Virus record (IMG/VR): IMGVR_UViG_3300044730_001157
Coordinates: 1 to 42,043 of that record
DNA from: a virus
Strand: one strand, 5' to 3'
Length of the DNA stretch: 42,043 bases
Part shown: in pieces, positions 4,460 to 38,412 of the stretch
Position numbering within the stretch: the first letter of the stretch is position 1
Layout of the letters: each line of letters starts with the position of its first letter
Program-made: the position numbers and the translations under genes
Notes under the pieces: model-generated
The model's database searches: none
Told to the model about the DNA's origin: nothing
The model's input: only the letters and a program-made list of their open reading frames with translations

Positions 4460-4810
4460 ATGCCAATTTTCCTAGAGCCAGATCAGAGTTTCCCGGTCTG
4501 GTTGGAATCCGACAAAGATAAGCCCGAAGAATCGAGACCTACGTTTTTCGTCCGATCCCAATCGATGCGAAATCAACGGAAGGTGCTCGAAGTGCTTGAC
4601 GTTATCCACAGGCCGGGCGTGACGGTCGAGCAGATTTTCAACGAGACCGTTGAGCAACTAAAAAAGGTGCTTGCGGGTTGGTCGAACATGAACAGCATCC
4701 CGTTTGGCCCCGAGGCTATCGAGGACGTTTTCACGTTGACGGAAGCTAGGGAACTGCTGAGGCTGGTTGCCTACAATCAACGAATGGACACAACCGAAAA
4801 AAAAGGCTGA
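4460..4810 (+). CDS. Tail assembly chaperone, short form (lambda gpG-like)
   Basis: 116 aa; start 4460 is preceded by ACGGAGAGACC, a good ribosome site. Such proteins bind the tape measure during tail assembly. The sequence is a small acidic-basic helical protein (LFxxSDKDKPEES-like start, VLEVLDVIHRPGVTVEQIFNE). It ends in a run of eight A just before TGA, and the following zinc-ribbon reading frame is in -1 phase and open across the join. This is the standard arrangement for a G/GT-type frameshift product. Position between tail tube and tape measure supports the call. Confidence 0.75.
   Translation: MPIFLEPDQSFPVWLESDKDKPEESRPTFFVRSQSMRNQRKVLEVLDVIHRPGVTVEQIFNETVEQLKKVLAGWSNMNSIPFGPEAIEDVFTLTEARELLRLVAYNQRMDTTEKKG
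4797..4805 (+). promoter_or_regulatory. -1 ribosomal frameshift slippery site
   Basis: Eight A (4797-4804) follow a G and precede GG. In the zero frame the codons are GAA AAA AAA GGC TGA, so A-AAA-AAA is a tandem Lys slippery heptamer just before the stop. Slipping back one base joins 115 residues of the chaperone to the frame of 4822-5142, which is open from the slip site onward, giving a 227-aa product. Confidence 0.75.
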
Positions 4811-4821
4811 GAGTCGCGGCG

Positions 4822-5142
4822 ATGATTAGGCAAGGAATGCTTTGCCTACATTGCAGCGACAAGGAATGCAAGGACAAGGGGACCGATGCAGAGCCAATTG
4901 AAATCGAGTGCGTTGCGTGCAACGGGACAGGATGCGACGAATGCACCGAGGGCGTTTATCGCGTCGATGGATGCCCGAATCAGTATTGCAGCGGACTTAC
5001 TCAGTTTGTCGAGTTGGTCGATTTATTCGATGAGGGATTGCCCCCGGTAGCAGGCGGGGCGTTGGATCAGTCGGCTAGTTTTATTGAGGCGTCACGTAGG
5101 TTTAAGCAAGAAGAACAACGAGCGAAAGCGGAACGGAAATAA
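4822..5142 (+). CDS. Zinc-ribbon T domain of the tail chaperone, expressed by frameshift
   Basis: 106 aa counted from ATG 4822, but that start has no clear ribosome site. Expression is more likely as the C-terminal extension of the upstream chaperone by -1 frameshifting, since the frame is open back to the slip site. The sequence has at least nine cysteines in CxxC-type pairs (CLHCSDKEC, CVACNGTGCDEC, CPNQYC), a DnaJ-like zinc pattern, followed by a charged helical tail. In lambda the T domain recruits tail tube protein to the tape measure. The zinc-ribbon makes this T domain different from lambda's. Confidence 0.7.
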   Translation: MIRQGMLCLHCSDKECKDKGTDAEPIEIECVACNGTGCDECTEGVYRVDGCPNQYCSGLTQFVELVDLFDEGLPPVAGGALDQSASFIEASRRFKQEEQRAKAERK

Positions 5143-5148
5143 ACCACG

Positions 5149-6537
5149 ATGGCCGGCGACGCAATCAAGATCGTTATCGAAGCAGAGGACAAGGCATCTG
5201 CGCAGGCGATCAACGCATCGAGGAATATCGAAAATGCGGTCAAGGGCGTCAAGGAAACGGGCCAAAAGGCCAAGGCATCGACTGAGTTTATCGGCGTGCT
5301 AGCAGGGCAGCTAGGCGGCTCGCAATTTCAAGCGGCAGCTAGCGGAGTCGCAGCGATCACGGAGAAGGTAGGGCAGTTCTCTGAGGTAATGAAAGCCGGT
5401 GGCGTTGGGGCGATGGCGTTTCAGGCCGGGGTTACGCTCTTGGTGACGACGCTATCGTTTAACCTCGGCAAGGCGATCGGCGAATCGATCTTTGGCGTCC
5501 AAGAGCTTAAAGACGAATTCGGTGAAGCGAGGGCCCAAATCGAGGGATTCACGCAGTCAATGATTTCGGCAGCGGATAAAGGCTTCAAAGAGAAGCTTGA
5601 GGATATCAGCCTAATCAAAGACCCGGCCAAGCAGCAGAATGAAGCGGTAGCAGCGTTTGCGGAAATCCAGGGAGCGATCAACAAAGCCTACGACAACTTC
5701 CATTACCGCCAACAGGAAATCGAACGGCTACGCGGCGAAACGGATATTCTCGGCAACAATGACGAAGCTATCGCGATGCTCGAATTGGAGAACGAGCAAT
5801 ACAACGCAACGATAGCGAGCTTAGAGAAACAGAAATGGGCGTTGTCCGACGTTTACGGCGAACGAGCGAATAACCTCAAGGCGATCAAGGCTCAACAGAA
5901 AGCCGAGGATGAAGCAGCGGCCAAAGCCAAGCAAACGCAAGCCTCCATCGAGTCGCAGCTAAAGAAAAACAACTACGCTTACATTGAGCTTACCAAAGGC
6001 GTCGAGGCGGCTCGGATGGCTCAATTGGCCGATGAGGGCATCGACGAGGCCAACGCGAAGCGGATCGTATTTGCCGAGCAAGCGACACGACTAGAAAAAG
6101 AACGGGCCGACAAGAAGAAAAAAGACGACGACCAAGAAGCCCAAAGGATTCAACGCATCGCAGATTTGCAGGCCAGCGAAATCGACCGAATCAAAGAGCA
6201 AAAAATCTTGCTCGAAGAGGGCGAAGAGGCGGCGAACCGATTTCGGCTTGAGCAACAGGGGCTAGGCAAGGAAGCAGCGGCTCGCATCGCATCGGAGCAA
6301 GCGGCCTTAGACCGGCAAAAGAAACAGGGCGAACTAGCCAAGAAGCTTGCCGAGAAACCTCAGCTAATGTCGGTCGAGCAGCGGCTAGTATCGCGTGGCG
6401 TCAACGAGGACACGCAAAAAGACATTGCAGCCAACACGCTCAAGACCGTGGAGCGGCTCGATGCTGTTGCCGAAGCGATTAAAAACCAATCCAAGCCCCA
6501 GGGGGCAGACGCTCTACAATTGGAGTTTGTTGGATGA
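5149..6537 (+). CDS. Tape measure protein (short)
   Basis: 462 aa. N-terminal IKIVIEAEDKASAQAINASRN is a classic tape-measure start. A hydrophobic stretch around residues 80-115 (MAFQAGVTLLVTTLSF) precedes long charged coiled coils rich in Ala, Glu, Lys and Gln. Such proteins set tail length and pass through the tail into the cell envelope. At the usual 1.5 angstrom per residue this would suggest a tail of about 70 nm, short for a siphovirus. The position after the chaperone pair supports the call. Confidence 0.75.
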   Translation: MAGDAIKIVIEAEDKASAQAINASRNIENAVKGVKETGQKAKASTEFIGVLAGQLGGSQFQAAASGVAAITEKVGQFSEVMKAGGVGAMAFQAGVTLLVTTLSFNLGKAIGESIFGVQELKDEFGEARAQIEGFTQSMISAADKGFKEKLEDISLIKDPAKQQNEAVAAFAEIQGAINKAYDNFHYRQQEIERLRGETDILGNNDEAIAMLELENEQYNATIASLEKQKWALSDVYGERANNLKAIKAQQKAEDEAAAKAKQTQASIESQLKKNNYAYIELTKGVEAARMAQLADEGIDEANAKRIVFAEQATRLEKERADKKKKDDDQEAQRIQRIADLQASEIDRIKEQKILLEEGEEAANRFRLEQQGLGKEAAARIASEQAALDRQKKQGELAKKLAEKPQLMSVEQRLVSRGVNEDTQKDIAANTLKTVERLDAVAEAIKNQSKPQGADALQLEFVG

Positions 6538-20928: not shown

Positions 20929-23025
20929 ATGAAATCTGAACTACACCACGGCGATTGCCTCGACGTACTCAAGACCCTTGCTGATTGCTCGGTCGATGCG
21001 ATTGTTACAGATCCTCCTTATGGGCTAGGTAAAGAACCTGACCCAGTTAAGGTAATGGCGGCGTGGATATTGCAGGGGTATTTTGAAGTTGAGGGAAGCG
21101 GGTTTATGGGCAAAAAATGGGATGCTTTTGTCCCACAACCTATTATCTGGAAGGAGGTTTTCAGGGTGCTTAAACCGGGCGGGCATTTACTAGCCTTTGC
21201 AGGCACTCGAACGCAAGACTGGATGGCAATGTCGCTGAGGTTCGCAGGCTTTGAAATCCGCGATATGATCGCTTGGGTATATGGTTCTGGGATGCCGAAA
21301 AGTTTTAATCTAAAACGATCTGGTGTATGCGATTGCGTTCCCGCTGAAAATGCGTTACCATACACCTATGAGCAAAACACCAAACACGACGTGCGACCAT
21401 TGCAAAATGGCGATTTACAAGAGGCCGGACCATATGGCAAGGAACGCGGGCAAATACTGCTCCCGATCCTGCCGAAACAAGGCGAACATAGTGACGGGCA
21501 AGCGCGGGAAAAACCCCAAGCTAGCGATGGAAAACAACCCGGCATGGAAGGGAGGGAGGTATATCGAGCCGAAGAAAGGGTATGTGATGATTCGCCGACC
21601 GGATCACCCCCGAGCCAGACAGAACGGCTACGTACTGGAGCATATCTTGGTAGCGGAAAAGATGCTAGGAAGGCCGCTGGCGGAAAACGAGGAGGTTCAT
21701 CACAAGAACAGGAACCGAGCGGACAACCGACCGGAAAACCTGCAAGTGTACTCAAGCCACTTGGAACACTGGATGAAGGAGCATTACACGGATGTGGCCA
21801 ATGCCAGAGATGCGGCAAGATCAAAAAAAACCTAGAGGGTTTCGGAACAACTCTCAAGCCTTCTCTAGAGCCGATCACGCTAGCCCGCAAGCCCCCTATC
21901 GGCACCGTTGCAACCAACGTACTCCAACACGGAACGGGCGGGCTGAATATCGATGGGTGCAGGGTGGGCGATACGGTGGAAACGTGGCCAGCTACTCGCA
22001 GTTATGGGGGCGGGACCGAATACGCATTCACCAACACGTCAAAGGGCGTCGTGAACTCTCAGCCAACAGGCAAAGCCCCAGAGGGCCGTTGGCCTGCTAA
22101 CTTCATCCATGATGGCAGCGAGGAGGTGCTGGCGTTGTTAGGTGAGGCGGCTAGGTTTTTTATGGTATTCCAAGATAAAGAGGTTTCTTTGCTGCCCGAA
22201 AACCAGTATAATGAGCAGCTAGCCAAAGGAGGACAATCATGGCAAACCAAAAACGACCCGCTATTTCTTGCGGGCACTGCGGCAAAGAGTTTATCCCTGC
22301 CAAAAGCACTAGAGTTTATTGCTCAAAGCGTTGTAGCAACCTCGGATCACCAAGAGGTAACAGCCTCAAGCGACTCGAAGGGACATTCTATTTACGTCAC
22401 TCAGGAAGAGTTAAAGACGCTTTGCGAGTGCGTTACCACAGCGATGATGATTTTAGGAAACGGGTTCTCGCTAGAGTCAAAGCTAGAAAAGCACACCCTG
22501 ACAAAAAGCCTTGTGAAAGTTGCGGCAACGAAAGAGCCGACAGGCATCACGACGATTATGACAAGCCTACTGAAATTCGATGGCTCTGCCGAAAATGCCA
22601 CATTGCGCATCACGCAAAAGAGTACGGCTCTTGGGGGACAGGCTTATCGAATCGCGTACATTCCTAAGGCAAGTCGCGACGACCGGGACGAAGGGTGCGG
22701 GGCGTTTGAGGAGCGAGGAAACAATCGGTACGGTGAGTTTAGAGGGACCGAAGATCATGCGCCAAAAACCCAAGACCACAACAAGAGCCGCAATCCTCAT
22801 CCAACGGTCAAACCTACCGACCTGATGCGTTACCTATGCCGACTTATCACACCGCCCGGCGGCATTGTCCTAGACCCCTTCATGGGCTCAGGATCGACCG
22901 GCAAGGCGGCGATGGCAGAGGGCTTTCGGTTCATCGGAATCGAACGGGAGGCCGAATACATCGAAATCGCTCGGGCTAGAATTTCCGCCGAGGCTGAAAA
23001 GCCAAGGCAGTTGAGTTTGTTTTGA
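20929..23025 (+). CDS. DNA methyltransferase (beta-type), ORF interrupted by two nested HNH genes
   Basis: 698 codons. N-terminal part: DPPYG at 28-32 (catalytic motif IV), FMGKKWD, KPGGHLLAFAGTR (82-94), GFEIRDMIAWVYGSGMPKS to 125. C-terminal: LDPFMGSGST at 651-657 (SAM motif I) and FIGIEREAEYIEIARARI. The order DPPY first, FxGxG last fits the beta group that methylates adenine N6 or cytosine N4. Residues about 128-301 and 412-576 do not look like the family: they are out-of-frame readings of two HNH genes. Removing them restores SFN-LEGFGTTLKP and ARFF-YIPKASRDDRDEG, both family-like. Whether the 698-residue protein is made, spliced or inactive is unclear. Confidence 0.85.
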   Translation: MKSELHHGDCLDVLKTLADCSVDAIVTDPPYGLGKEPDPVKVMAAWILQGYFEVEGSGFMGKKWDAFVPQPIIWKEVFRVLKPGGHLLAFAGTRTQDWMAMSLRFAGFEIRDMIAWVYGSGMPKSFNLKRSGVCDCVPAENALPYTYEQNTKHDVRPLQNGDLQEAGPYGKERGQILLPILPKQGEHSDGQAREKPQASDGKQPGMEGREVYRAEERVCDDSPTGSPPSQTERLRTGAYLGSGKDARKAAGGKRGGSSQEQEPSGQPTGKPASVLKPLGTLDEGALHGCGQCQRCGKIKKNLEGFGTTLKPSLEPITLARKPPIGTVATNVLQHGTGGLNIDGCRVGDTVETWPATRSYGGGTEYAFTNTSKGVVNSQPTGKAPEGRWPANFIHDGSEEVLALLGEAARFFMVFQDKEVSLLPENQYNEQLAKGGQSWQTKNDPLFLAGTAAKSLSLPKALEFIAQSVVATSDHQEVTASSDSKGHSIYVTQEELKTLCECVTTAMMILGNGFSLESKLEKHTLTKSLVKVAATKEPTGITTIMTSLLKFDGSAENATLRITQKSTALGGQAYRIAYIPKASRDDRDEGCGAFEERGNNRYGEFRGTEDHAPKTQDHNKSRNPHPTVKPTDLMRYLCRLITPPGGIVLDPFMGSGSTGKAAMAEGFRFIGIEREAEYIEIARARISAEAEKPRQLSLF
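21333..21361 (+). promoter_or_regulatory. Possible promoter of the first nested HNH gene
   Basis: TTGCGT, 17-base spacer, TACCAT; only 6 bases separate the -10 box from ATG 21368, so a transcript would be leaderless or nearly so. Each box is 4/6 to consensus, so the support is moderate. A similar layout with a better match is seen at 26364. Confidence 0.4.
21368..21835 (+). CDS. HNH homing endonuclease, nested +1 in the methyltransferase ORF
   Basis: 155 aa; ATG 21368 is chosen because the zinc finger starts right after it, though ATG 21323 is possible. N-terminal zinc finger C9xxC12 ... YCSRSC (C31, C35). Then the HNH fold: GYVLEHILVAEKMLGRPLAE, EEVHH (H111, H112), N114/N120, RPENLQVYSSHLEH. 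It cleaves DNA and would spread its own gene. It lies entirely inside the methyltransferase ORF in another frame. It ends at A8-CCTAG; a -1 slip there would enter the methyltransferase frame. Confidence 0.85.
   Translation: MSKTPNTTCDHCKMAIYKRPDHMARNAGKYCSRSCRNKANIVTGKRGKNPKLAMENNPAWKGGRYIEPKKGYVMIRRPDHPRARQNGYVLEHILVAEKMLGRPLAENEEVHHKNRNRADNRPENLQVYSSHLEHWMKEHYTDVANARDAARSKKT
22207..22232 (+). promoter_or_regulatory. -10 box and strong ribosome site of the second nested HNH gene
   Basis: TATAAT (22207-22212) is a perfect -10 hexamer, although no good -35 is seen at 16-18 bases upstream. AAAGGAGG (22225-22232) is near-perfect Shine-Dalgarno, six bases before ATG 22239. Both lie inside the methyltransferase ORF and are not needed for that frame, arguing for independent expression of the nested gene. 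Confidence 0.6.
22239..22667 (+). CDS. HNH-type zinc endonuclease-like protein, nested in the methyltransferase ORF
   Basis: 142 aa, in the -1 frame of the methyltransferase. Two zinc modules: CGHCGKEFIPAKSTRVYCSKRC (C11, C14, C28, C32) and CESCGNERADRHHDDYDKP...WLCRKCH (C92, C95, H103, H104, C117, C120, H121). The second is the treble-clef HNH-like type common in phages (HHDDYxKPxxxxWLCxxCH). Endonuclease function is likely but not certain. It has its own ribosome site and a perfect -10 box. It is a different family from the first nested gene, so the two insertions were independent. Confidence 0.75.
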   Translation: MANQKRPAISCGHCGKEFIPAKSTRVYCSKRCSNLGSPRGNSLKRLEGTFYLRHSGRVKDALRVRYHSDDDFRKRVLARVKARKAHPDKKPCESCGNERADRHHDDYDKPTEIRWLCRKCHIAHHAKEYGSWGTGLSNRVHS

Positions 23026-35993: not shown

Positions 35994-36308
35994 TTGGAGA
36001 TCAGGACATCGAAGGATTTACGCTTGGTCAATCGAGCCCTCAAGGAAAAATGGAACGTCGACAAAGAGGCGATCAAAGCGGCGTTGATGCAATGCTTGGC
36101 CGATCCAGATTTGGCGATCGATGCAGCCAAGGTACTACTCGCAGCCGACGCGATCGATTGCAAACGCGAAGAGCTCGACGCGAAGCGGGAGGTAAAAGAA
36201 AATGAGCAACGACTCCGACTTCTTGAACTCGCTCAGTCTGTCCCAATTGCAGAACTTGCTAAGCTTGCATCCGAAAACGGCATTACAGGCCGACCCGGTC
36301 AAGGGTGA
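35994..36308 (+). CDS. Terminase small subunit-like protein
   Basis: 104 aa with a TTG start; an alternative start is not evident. Helical (SKDLRLVNRALKEKWNVDKE, AAKVLLAADAIDCKREELDA) with a charged coiled-coil middle. Its position upstream of, and 107-base overlap with, the large terminase supports a small-subunit role of DNA recognition. The family is not confirmed. Confidence 0.55.
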   Translation: MEIRTSKDLRLVNRALKEKWNVDKEAIKAALMQCLADPDLAIDAAKVLLAADAIDCKREELDAKREVKENEQRLRLLELAQSVPIAELAKLASENGITGRPGQG

Positions 36309-38412
36309 CCGTCGAGCATACCAACGCGATTTGATGGCCAAGAAACGGGCCAGCCAACGGGATATTTTCATCCTTCCACCCCTAGACCCCTCCAGGCGTC
36401 TTGAAGCCGAGTCTGATTGCTCCCTGTGGCTATCCACCTATTTCGGCTCGCAGTTCTTCGAGGCGTGGACCAGCGACCGGCTAGCCATGATCGAATCGAT
36501 TATCGACGCGGCTAAGTACGGCGGGGATCAAGGCATCGCAGGGCCTCGCGGCGAAGGTAAAACGACGTTAGCTATTCGCGTTGCCTTATTCCTAATGGTC
36601 CGTGGTTTATCGACGTTTCCCGTCGTTATTGGGAAGAACGCTGACAAGGCGAAAAAGGAAGTACGCGACCTAGTTGAGCAACTGCAACAAAACGACCTTT
36701 TCATCCAGGATTACCCAGAGATCGGGATCCCATTCCAGGCCGTTGGCGGTTGGTCGAGCCGCGGGAGGATGCAGACTTGCCAGGGCCAAGCGACCAATAT
36801 CGTTATCGGGCCGGAATTCTTTGTCTTCCCTACGATCAACCGCAGCCAGATCCCCGATTGGCCCAAGGAAATCGAGCCATGCAGCAAGGGCCAAGTGTTC
36901 TACTCCCTGGGTATCGATGGGGCTATTCGCGGGACCAAGTTCAGATCGGCTAGGCCAACGCTGGCAATTCTCGACGACATCGAAGACCGTGAAGCCGCGG
37001 CTAGCGAAACGATGATTGCGAAGAATGAGGAAATCATCGAGCAAGACATCGGCGGGCTCGGGCAGTCCTCGGAGCGGATCCCTCGGGTGATGCTCTGCAC
37101 GATTCAAAATAGGAAGTGTATCGCCTTCAAATACACAGACCCTAAGCAGAAGCCCAGTTGGCGTGGAAAGCGATACCGCAAACTCGTCACCAAGCCGGAT
37201 CGAATGGACTTGACCGAACAGTACATCGACCTACGCAAGGGACGCAAAACCGACGACCCGGACGCCAGAGAAGCCTTCCGTTTCTATCGCGACAATCAAG
37301 CCGAGATCGAACGCGGGGCGGTAGTAAGCAATCAGGCTAGCTATTCCAAAAAGACCCACAGCGACGGGGAGCCGATGGAGCTATCTGCAGTTCATAGCTA
37401 CTTCAATCGGGTAGCCGACCGTGGACAAAAAGCAGTATCGACCGAAGACGACAACGACCCACCAGAGGAAGCCGGGCCAATGGGCTTAGGGATTACTCCG
37501 GCTTTGGTCGAGTCGCGGATAAGCGGCTTGGTCCGGCGGCAACTACCGGCCAATACCGTGGCACTGACAGCGGCGATCGACTTAGGCAAGTATTACCTCC
37601 ATTGGGTTGTTACGGCGTGGTGGCACGGGGCTGGAGGCGTTGTAGTGGACTACGGCATCCAGCAAGTCTACGGGACAGACAAAAGCATGGATCACGAGGC
37701 CAGCGAGCCGATGATCTACCAAGCCCTGTTAAGCCTTCGGGACGAACTACTCCAGAAAGAATTCACCGACACAACCGGAACGCGGAGGCCGATCGACTTT
37801 TGCCTAGTAGACTCAGGGGCTTTCACCAATGCGGCGTATCAGTTTTGTCGCGAAGTCGGCGGGATCTTCCACCCGTCGAAGGGACAAGACCCGTACCATC
37901 GAAAGGCCAAGTCTAGTTCGGTGACGATCGCAGGGGCAAACCTTCACGCTCAAAAGTTGCCGTCGTCCAATGTTTGGCTCTATGAGTTAGATACATCGTA
38001 CTGGAAGCAGTTCATCCATGAACGATTCCTTACGCCGACTTTTGACGATGCGAACATGCTTCGGCGCGGGTCGCTTTCAGTGTTTAGCCTTGAAGATGAA
38101 AAACGACATTCGCAGTACGCTCAACATATCGCAGCCGAAGAGCTAGTCACCAAGTTCACTGAGGGCAAAGGGGCTAAAACCTACTGGAATGTCCGGGACT
38201 CGAATAACCATTGGCTCGATGCAACTTACATGGCTGCGGCAGGGTCCGAAGCCTGCGGCGTAAAATTGATTGCCCCAAGCGAAATCGAGGTAGCCCCAAA
38301 GCATATCAGCGATGAGCCGAAACAAGCCAAGCCTGTTCAGCAAGCCTACAGGCACGGGCAGCAACGATTCAAGCAACGACAAGGTGGATGGATTCCCAAG
38401 CGAAGAGGGTGA
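36202..38412 (+). CDS. Terminase large subunit (GpA-like)
   Basis: 736 aa; GGAGG at 36188-36192 supports ATG 36202, inside the small subunit gene. Walker A GPRGEGKTT (114-122), Walker B LAILDDIED (254-262). The C-terminal nuclease has AAIDLG, CLVDSGA and a final Asp in HWLDATYMA. It packages DNA into the prohead through ATP hydrolysis and cuts it. GpA type terminase with lambda-type portal suggests a cos packaging mechanism. Confidence 0.9.
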   Translation: MSNDSDFLNSLSLSQLQNLLSLHPKTALQADPVKGDRRAYQRDLMAKKRASQRDIFILPPLDPSRRLEAESDCSLWLSTYFGSQFFEAWTSDRLAMIESIIDAAKYGGDQGIAGPRGEGKTTLAIRVALFLMVRGLSTFPVVIGKNADKAKKEVRDLVEQLQQNDLFIQDYPEIGIPFQAVGGWSSRGRMQTCQGQATNIVIGPEFFVFPTINRSQIPDWPKEIEPCSKGQVFYSLGIDGAIRGTKFRSARPTLAILDDIEDREAAASETMIAKNEEIIEQDIGGLGQSSERIPRVMLCTIQNRKCIAFKYTDPKQKPSWRGKRYRKLVTKPDRMDLTEQYIDLRKGRKTDDPDAREAFRFYRDNQAEIERGAVVSNQASYSKKTHSDGEPMELSAVHSYFNRVADRGQKAVSTEDDNDPPEEAGPMGLGITPALVESRISGLVRRQLPANTVALTAAIDLGKYYLHWVVTAWWHGAGGVVVDYGIQQVYGTDKSMDHEASEPMIYQALLSLRDELLQKEFTDTTGTRRPIDFCLVDSGAFTNAAYQFCREVGGIFHPSKGQDPYHRKAKSSSVTIAGANLHAQKLPSSNVWLYELDTSYWKQFIHERFLTPTFDDANMLRRGSLSVFSLEDEKRHSQYAQHIAAEELVTKFTEGKGAKTYWNVRDSNNHWLDATYMAAAGSEACGVKLIAPSEIEVAPKHISDEPKQAKPVQQAYRHGQQRFKQRQGGWIPKRRG

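Follow-up and report, generated by a model that had tools for sequence, protein, structure and literature searches.

Out-of-frame HNH endonuclease genes nested in a phage DNA methyltransferase gene and the absence of stop codons from the host reading frame

Background

Selfish genes that reside inside useful genes usually need a splicing device. Here we describe a phage DNA methyltransferase (MTase) gene that has been invaded twice by small HNH endonuclease genes written in other reading frames. A survey of related phages shows that the host frame is kept free of stop codons, so the invader apparently spreads without killing the gene it sits in. In 41 non-redundant nested HNH genes the host frame holds 0 stops, while shuffling of synonymous codons predicts 85 (P about 1e-50).

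The architecture itself is not new. Arsenault, Gosselin and Gogarten described it in 2025 as the “ShiLan domain” (PMC11855218), an out-of-frame HNH gene in a mycobacteriophage methylase. We did not find in that paper a test of selection, further families and sites, two elements per gene, internal TATAAT promoters, or homologues nested inside a probable intein, antisense, or in other genes. A term search of the paper found no mention of selection or antisense.

The object of the study is a stretch of 42,043 nucleotides, IMG/VR virus record IMGVR_UViG_3300044730_001157, hereafter “the window”. A sequence-only reading had proposed that one MTase frame carries two unrelated HNH genes out of frame, that removal of 174 and 165 codons restores the junctions SFN-LEGFG and ARFF-YIPK, and that the open host frame suggests selection for read-through. 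The observation is confirmed and the proposed selection is supported, with the qualifications given below.

Results

The methyltransferase gene and its two nested genes

The MTase gene and the features described for it are on the plus strand. The ORF at 20929-23025 is a single open frame of 698 codons that encodes an N6/N4 (beta-class) DNA MTase. It matches Pfam PF01555 (N6_N4_Mtase, E=9.5e-35) and phrog_67 (E=6e-73), and the best Foldseek match of its predicted structure is CcrM (6pbd). The catalytic motif DPPY is at 21010-21021 (residues 28-31) and the SAM-binding motif FMGSG is at 22879-22893 (residues 651-655). D28, P30 and Y31 of the former and F651, G653 and G655 of the latter are invariant in 41 MTases. 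In the predicted structure the MTase core is confident (pLDDT above 90), while the inserts, read in the host frame, lie mostly below pLDDT 50.

Nested gene 1 (21368-21835, 155 aa from ATG) is in the +1 frame relative to the host. Its product is an HNH endonuclease by profile: it matches HNH_3 (PF13392, E=5e-11, 42.5 bits with a cut-off of 24.8) and the HNH family phrog_20891 (E=2e-30). Its dN/dS against the relative L006 (relatives are denoted by L and a number) is 0.13. Nested gene 2 (22239-22667, 142 aa) is in the -1 frame relative to the host. It does not match HNH_3 but matches the PHROG endonuclease families phrog_2340 (E=6e-11) and phrog_1271 (E=1e-9). It belongs to a zinc/HNH family with 30 invariant columns in 12 relatives, including invariant Cys and His, and is predicted to fold with a mean pLDDT of 85. 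No sequence relatives of the nested proteins were found in PDB, and a Foldseek search with nested protein 2 gave nothing significant. Both HNH families are shared with many phages.

Empty sites and insert borders

A scan of viral contigs returned close relatives that provide empty sites. L006 has insert 1 but not insert 2 (SAARFFYCAKASRDDRDEGC), and L007 has neither. L008 and L011 have different nested HNH genes at third and fourth sites.

The window and L006 are 90-100% (mostly 97-100%) identical over 21289-21830 and 73-97% identical in the flanking blocks. The moving tract of insert 1 is thus roughly 21286-21834 (about 174 codons in phase). Its dS against L006 is 0.09, while dS in the adjoining MTase codons upstream is 0.83, so the insert has moved independently of its host gene. 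The region around insert 1 is a naturally hypervariable loop, with 25 to 170 aa between anchors in relatives, so the junction SFN-LEGFG is plausible but not unique. In a number of relatives (L002, L004, L015, L017, L019-L023, L063-L065 and L097) this loop, between GSGFPKS and GWGTALKP, often carries an in-frame stretch of 60-90 aa that resembles a small helix-turn-helix module (e.g., CTPSSVRDWEEGR, AMASHYLTDKAQPAIPT). The suggestion that similar inserts occur at the first position in other phage MTases proved right (L088, L089 and L012).

Insert 2 (22162-22656, residues 412-576, about 165 codons in phase) lies between ARFF and YIPKAS. The corresponding empty site in L006 and L007 is SAARFFYCAKAS. 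The same site is filled in L097-L111 and in L275 from Paraburkholderia.

One could suppose that the segments are old MTase domains and that the HNH frames arose later by overprinting. The variable length of the loop at site 1 is in line with this. However, the nested HNHs have stand-alone homologues, empty sites exist in close relatives, and it is the HNH frame, not the host frame, that carries the amino-acid constraint. We regard this explanation as very improbable.

Nested HNH genes in related phage methyltransferases

Six HNH families recur in related phage MTases, each at its own site: h1 and h2 (the families of window genes 1 and 2), h8, h11, hB and hC. Families h1 and hB are found near GSGxPKS, hC between ALKP and EPI, h11 after ARKPL, h2 between SAARFF and YCAKAS, and h8 mostly between DDRDEGC and HPTVKP. 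The host frame relative to the HNH gene is the same within each family. At least six hosts carry two nested HNH genes (the window, L100, L109, L202, L052 and L236). The relatives include isolates suitable for experiments, namely Escherichia phage BUCT618, Cylindrospermopsis phage Cr-LKS3, and Mycobacterium phages Mantra and Starcevich. No E. coli prophage copies of the BUCT618 gene were found. In the records that we read the nuclease is not annotated and the whole is called “methyltransferase”.

The searches started from HNH proteins and did not require an open host frame. A profile-based re-count gave 80 instances of an HNH gene flanked by both MTase halves (some contigs were fetched by two searches), 74 of them in one unbroken frame. 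The six exceptions come from three records. In L231 (=L259) an HNH gene of another type, a frame of 239 codons at 4789-5508, has split the MTase into frames of 818 and 248 codons, while an hC element in the same gene is open. In ShiLan and OwlsT2W, which carry the hC-type element, the MTase is broken downstream of an open insert, so a working host is not always kept.

In the hC family six loci have inserts that are 90-96% identical in nucleotides, while their MTase flanks are 36-78% identical. Together with the empty sites this indicates recent horizontal spread, for which homing is the likely route.

Avoidance of stop codons in the host frame

To test selection for read-through, we shuffled synonymous codons, which keeps each HNH protein and its codon usage. 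For the window alone, the probability of an open host frame is 0.042 for insert 1 and 0.019 for insert 2, or about 1e-4 once both must also be in phase (a factor of 1/9). Over the 41 non-redundant nested HNHs (under 75% identical within a family) the host frame has 0 stops against 85.1 expected (log10 P -49.7). The unused third frame has 391 stops against 404.5 expected, and stand-alone HNH relatives in the same phase have 275 against 283.3. Family h1 alone gives 0 against 47.1. The nested HNH proteins are also stop-poor at the amino-acid level, with 0.78 against 4.44 expected stops per 100 codons.

Chance openness, noticed because it is striking, is thereby rejected, unless the sampling was biased in a way that we have not seen. 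It is true that the chance for the window alone is only about 1e-4 and that the host-phase frame of several families is intrinsically stop-poor. Yet 41 of 41 loci are open, and the controls are flat.

A two-frame substitution count shows purifying selection in the HNH frame and fewer changes through stop codons in the host frame (SX/SS 0.16-0.41 for nested genes, 0.9-1.6 for stand-alone ones). Strong amino-acid selection on the spacer, i.e., on the insert as read in the host frame, is not supported (dNN/dNS about 0.9-1.3; dN/dS 0.68-1.07). The dSN/dSS values of 0.38-0.48 in five families hint at weak constraint, but they rest on few SS sites and are 0.6-1.4 in stand-alone controls. The spacer appears to have to be readable, not specific. 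The MTase flanks have dN/dS of 0.04 against L007 on both sides, which fits the idea that the parasite does not kill its host gene. This purifying selection is averaged over history and may partly predate the inserts.

Absence of detectable introns and inteins

Homing endonuclease genes usually ride on introns or inteins. We considered that the inserts are removed before the protein is made or used, by a degenerate group I intron, an intein, or translational bypassing. No Rfam match to a group I/II intron or another RNA element was found, even at E up to 5. The inserts are almost wholly nuclease gene, which leaves no room for a ribozyme core. There is no intein model among the NCBIfam hits of the window ORF, and no splicing blocks were seen by inspection. 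Above all, an excised segment would not be selected to lack stops.

In several families the insert ends mimic the host sequence on the other side of the insertion site. The 5' end, read in the host frame, resembles the host sequence just downstream of the site (TVTFASKPY for PITLARKPL in hC; VSKQIDQQE for VSKAIDKAA in hB). The 3' end resembles the host sequence upstream (GVKPNL for ALKPAL in hC; SRFxYCAKAS after SAARFF in h2). Such ends were seen in hC, hB, h2 and h11 loci (e.g., L003:1910-2000 and 2427-2520), and the first half of this was noted for ShiLan in the 2025 paper. The repeats could recall splice or bypass sites, or may complete the interrupted strand from both sides. On balance we consider removal of the inserts unlikely.

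Candidate expression signals

Nested gene 2 has a Shine-Dalgarno sequence AAGGAGG at 22226-22232, a 7-base match 6 nt before its ATG at 22239. TATAAT at 22207-22212 is its candidate -10 element, without a good -35. An exact TATAAT lies upstream of 20 of 46 nested HNH genes, against 1.25 expected, 2 of 274 control windows in the same genes, and 8 of 56 stand-alone HNH genes. The 46 include close relatives, so the count is not of independent events. L048 and L232 have the complete TTGACA-17-TATAAT. This is consensus evidence only. For nested gene 1 no clear promoter, strong sigma-70 promoter or Shine-Dalgarno sequence was found.

In ShiLan gp65 (L250:2423-2503) the published HNH start seems to be a GTG about 78 nt upstream of another GTG (2501), which aligns with the hC ATG and follows GGAGG by 4 nt. 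The published remark that no ribosome-binding site is detectable may reflect the start chosen.

Nested HNH genes in a probable intein, in antisense and in other genes

HNH genes 31-41% like window gene 1 (distant h1 relatives) lie out of frame inside what looks like an intein of the MTase at YGC...TGN/SGFPKS, the site of the ShiLan intein (L052:583-1080, L109:2683-3420, L202:2806-3564, L028:4503-5282 and L030:3491-3949). They are located between an N-block (CLSxDTEVL...VSRNHR) and a C-block (VWCVxVPTGAFVARRNGKVFVTGN/S), so that the splicing domains and the endonuclease would be in different frames. The N-block of L052 matches TIGR01445 at 23.6 bits (cut-off 24.5), better than the ShiLan intein does (15.7), but two of the four N-blocks gave no match. 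The intein frame has 0 stops against 6.4-11.9 expected in the four tested. A related preprint on actinobacteriophage inteins (10.1101/2025.01.02.630785) may overlap with this observation.

In Mycobacterium phage MKC-IRE-02 (L253:2507-2881) an HNH_3 gene (E=4e-10) is nested antisense inside an open MTase frame, and the host antisense frame has 0 stops against 1.75 expected. Out-of-frame HNHs were also found inside other genes: a C5 cytosine MTase (L147:5875-6555), two phrog_1008 proteins (L238:3962-4423 and L258:3001-3423), and a 1088-codon GGDEF/ParB-like ORF of a gammaproteobacterial MAG (L281:3357-3734; 0 stops against 6.0 expected). In the window itself, the terminase large subunit ORF (36202-38412, 736 aa) has two PHROG matches (residues 31-311 and 443-734) separated by about 130 aa, but no intein or nested HNH was seen there.

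Discussion

The explanation that we consider highly likely is as follows. The two inserts are mobile HNH homing-type genes that consist of little more than the nuclease gene itself and have inserted in phase into conserved or loop positions of a phage MTase. The nuclease is read from its own start, for gene 2 with its own Shine-Dalgarno sequence and a TATAAT. Ribosomes reading the MTase pass straight through in another frame and add an unstructured spacer of 165-174 aa that the MTase tolerates. Purifying selection on the host gene removes any stop in the spacer frame, and the HNH proteins themselves have become stop-poor. The nesting, the empty sites, the conservation of the HNH frame, the stop avoidance and the independent movement of inserts are supported directly by the sequences. 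That a full-length, active MTase is made, that the nuclease cuts the empty allele, and that spread is by homing are inferences in the absence of expression, methylation or cleavage data.

It is also conceivable that the MTase is no longer needed as one protein. The open frame could merely keep ribosomes on the mRNA (transcription-translation coupling), so that the nested gene or downstream genes are expressed, or the MTase could work in pieces, possibly as the split ribonucleotide reductase of phage Aeh1 does. This would also select against stops, and some hosts (ShiLan, OwlsT2W) do have a broken C-terminus downstream. On the other hand, the flank dN/dS is 0.04 and the motifs are intact, nested genes often have their own TATAAT and Shine-Dalgarno sequence, and pieces would not need the open frame between them. 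We find this possibility doubtful.

The closest known system is the ShiLan domain of Mycobacterium phage ShiLan gp65 (Gosselin et al. 2023, PMC9957025; PMC11855218). It shares with the window an out-of-frame HNH gene inserted in phase in the same MTase family, no stops in the host frame, no intron or intein features, and a patchy distribution. The hC family is the relative of the ShiLan element (about 49-50% identical, same site). The window's two HNHs belong to other families at other sites (SFN and ARFF), there are two in one gene, and gene 2 has a Shine-Dalgarno sequence and a TATAAT, so it is the same kind of arrangement but not the same element. Hidden out-of-frame HNH-like genes in a phage methylase have also been noted in the actinobacteriophages Pacc40 (gp60; PMC11855218) and Applejack (gp54/gp55; PMC12613952). 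Inteins with homing endonucleases are likewise selfish, in phase, at conserved coding sites and with an open host frame, but the window inserts have no splicing blocks and their endonuclease is in another frame. The free-standing mobE in nrdA of Aeromonas phage Aeh1 is probably an HNH-type gene inserted in a phage metabolic gene without intron or intein (see PMC2988022). There the host appears to become two ORFs, as with the splitting insertion in L231, while here the host frame stays whole.

It is more likely than not that out-of-frame nested HNHs are a broad class of frame-permissive homing genes and not a mycobacteriophage oddity. In this reading, at least six families have settled at distinct conserved sites of phage MTases, up to two per gene. 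Many carry internal promoters, their own proteins have evolved stop-poor shadows, and they also occur inside a probable intein, antisense and in other genes.

The window and its relatives turn one published curiosity into a general rule with a quantitative test. They suggest how the hidden gene is expressed, by its own promoter and ribosome-binding site, a question that the earlier paper left open. The arrangement is another way for a selfish gene to live inside a useful one without a splicing device: the invader is written in one frame while the host apparently reads through in another, and selection polices the overlap.
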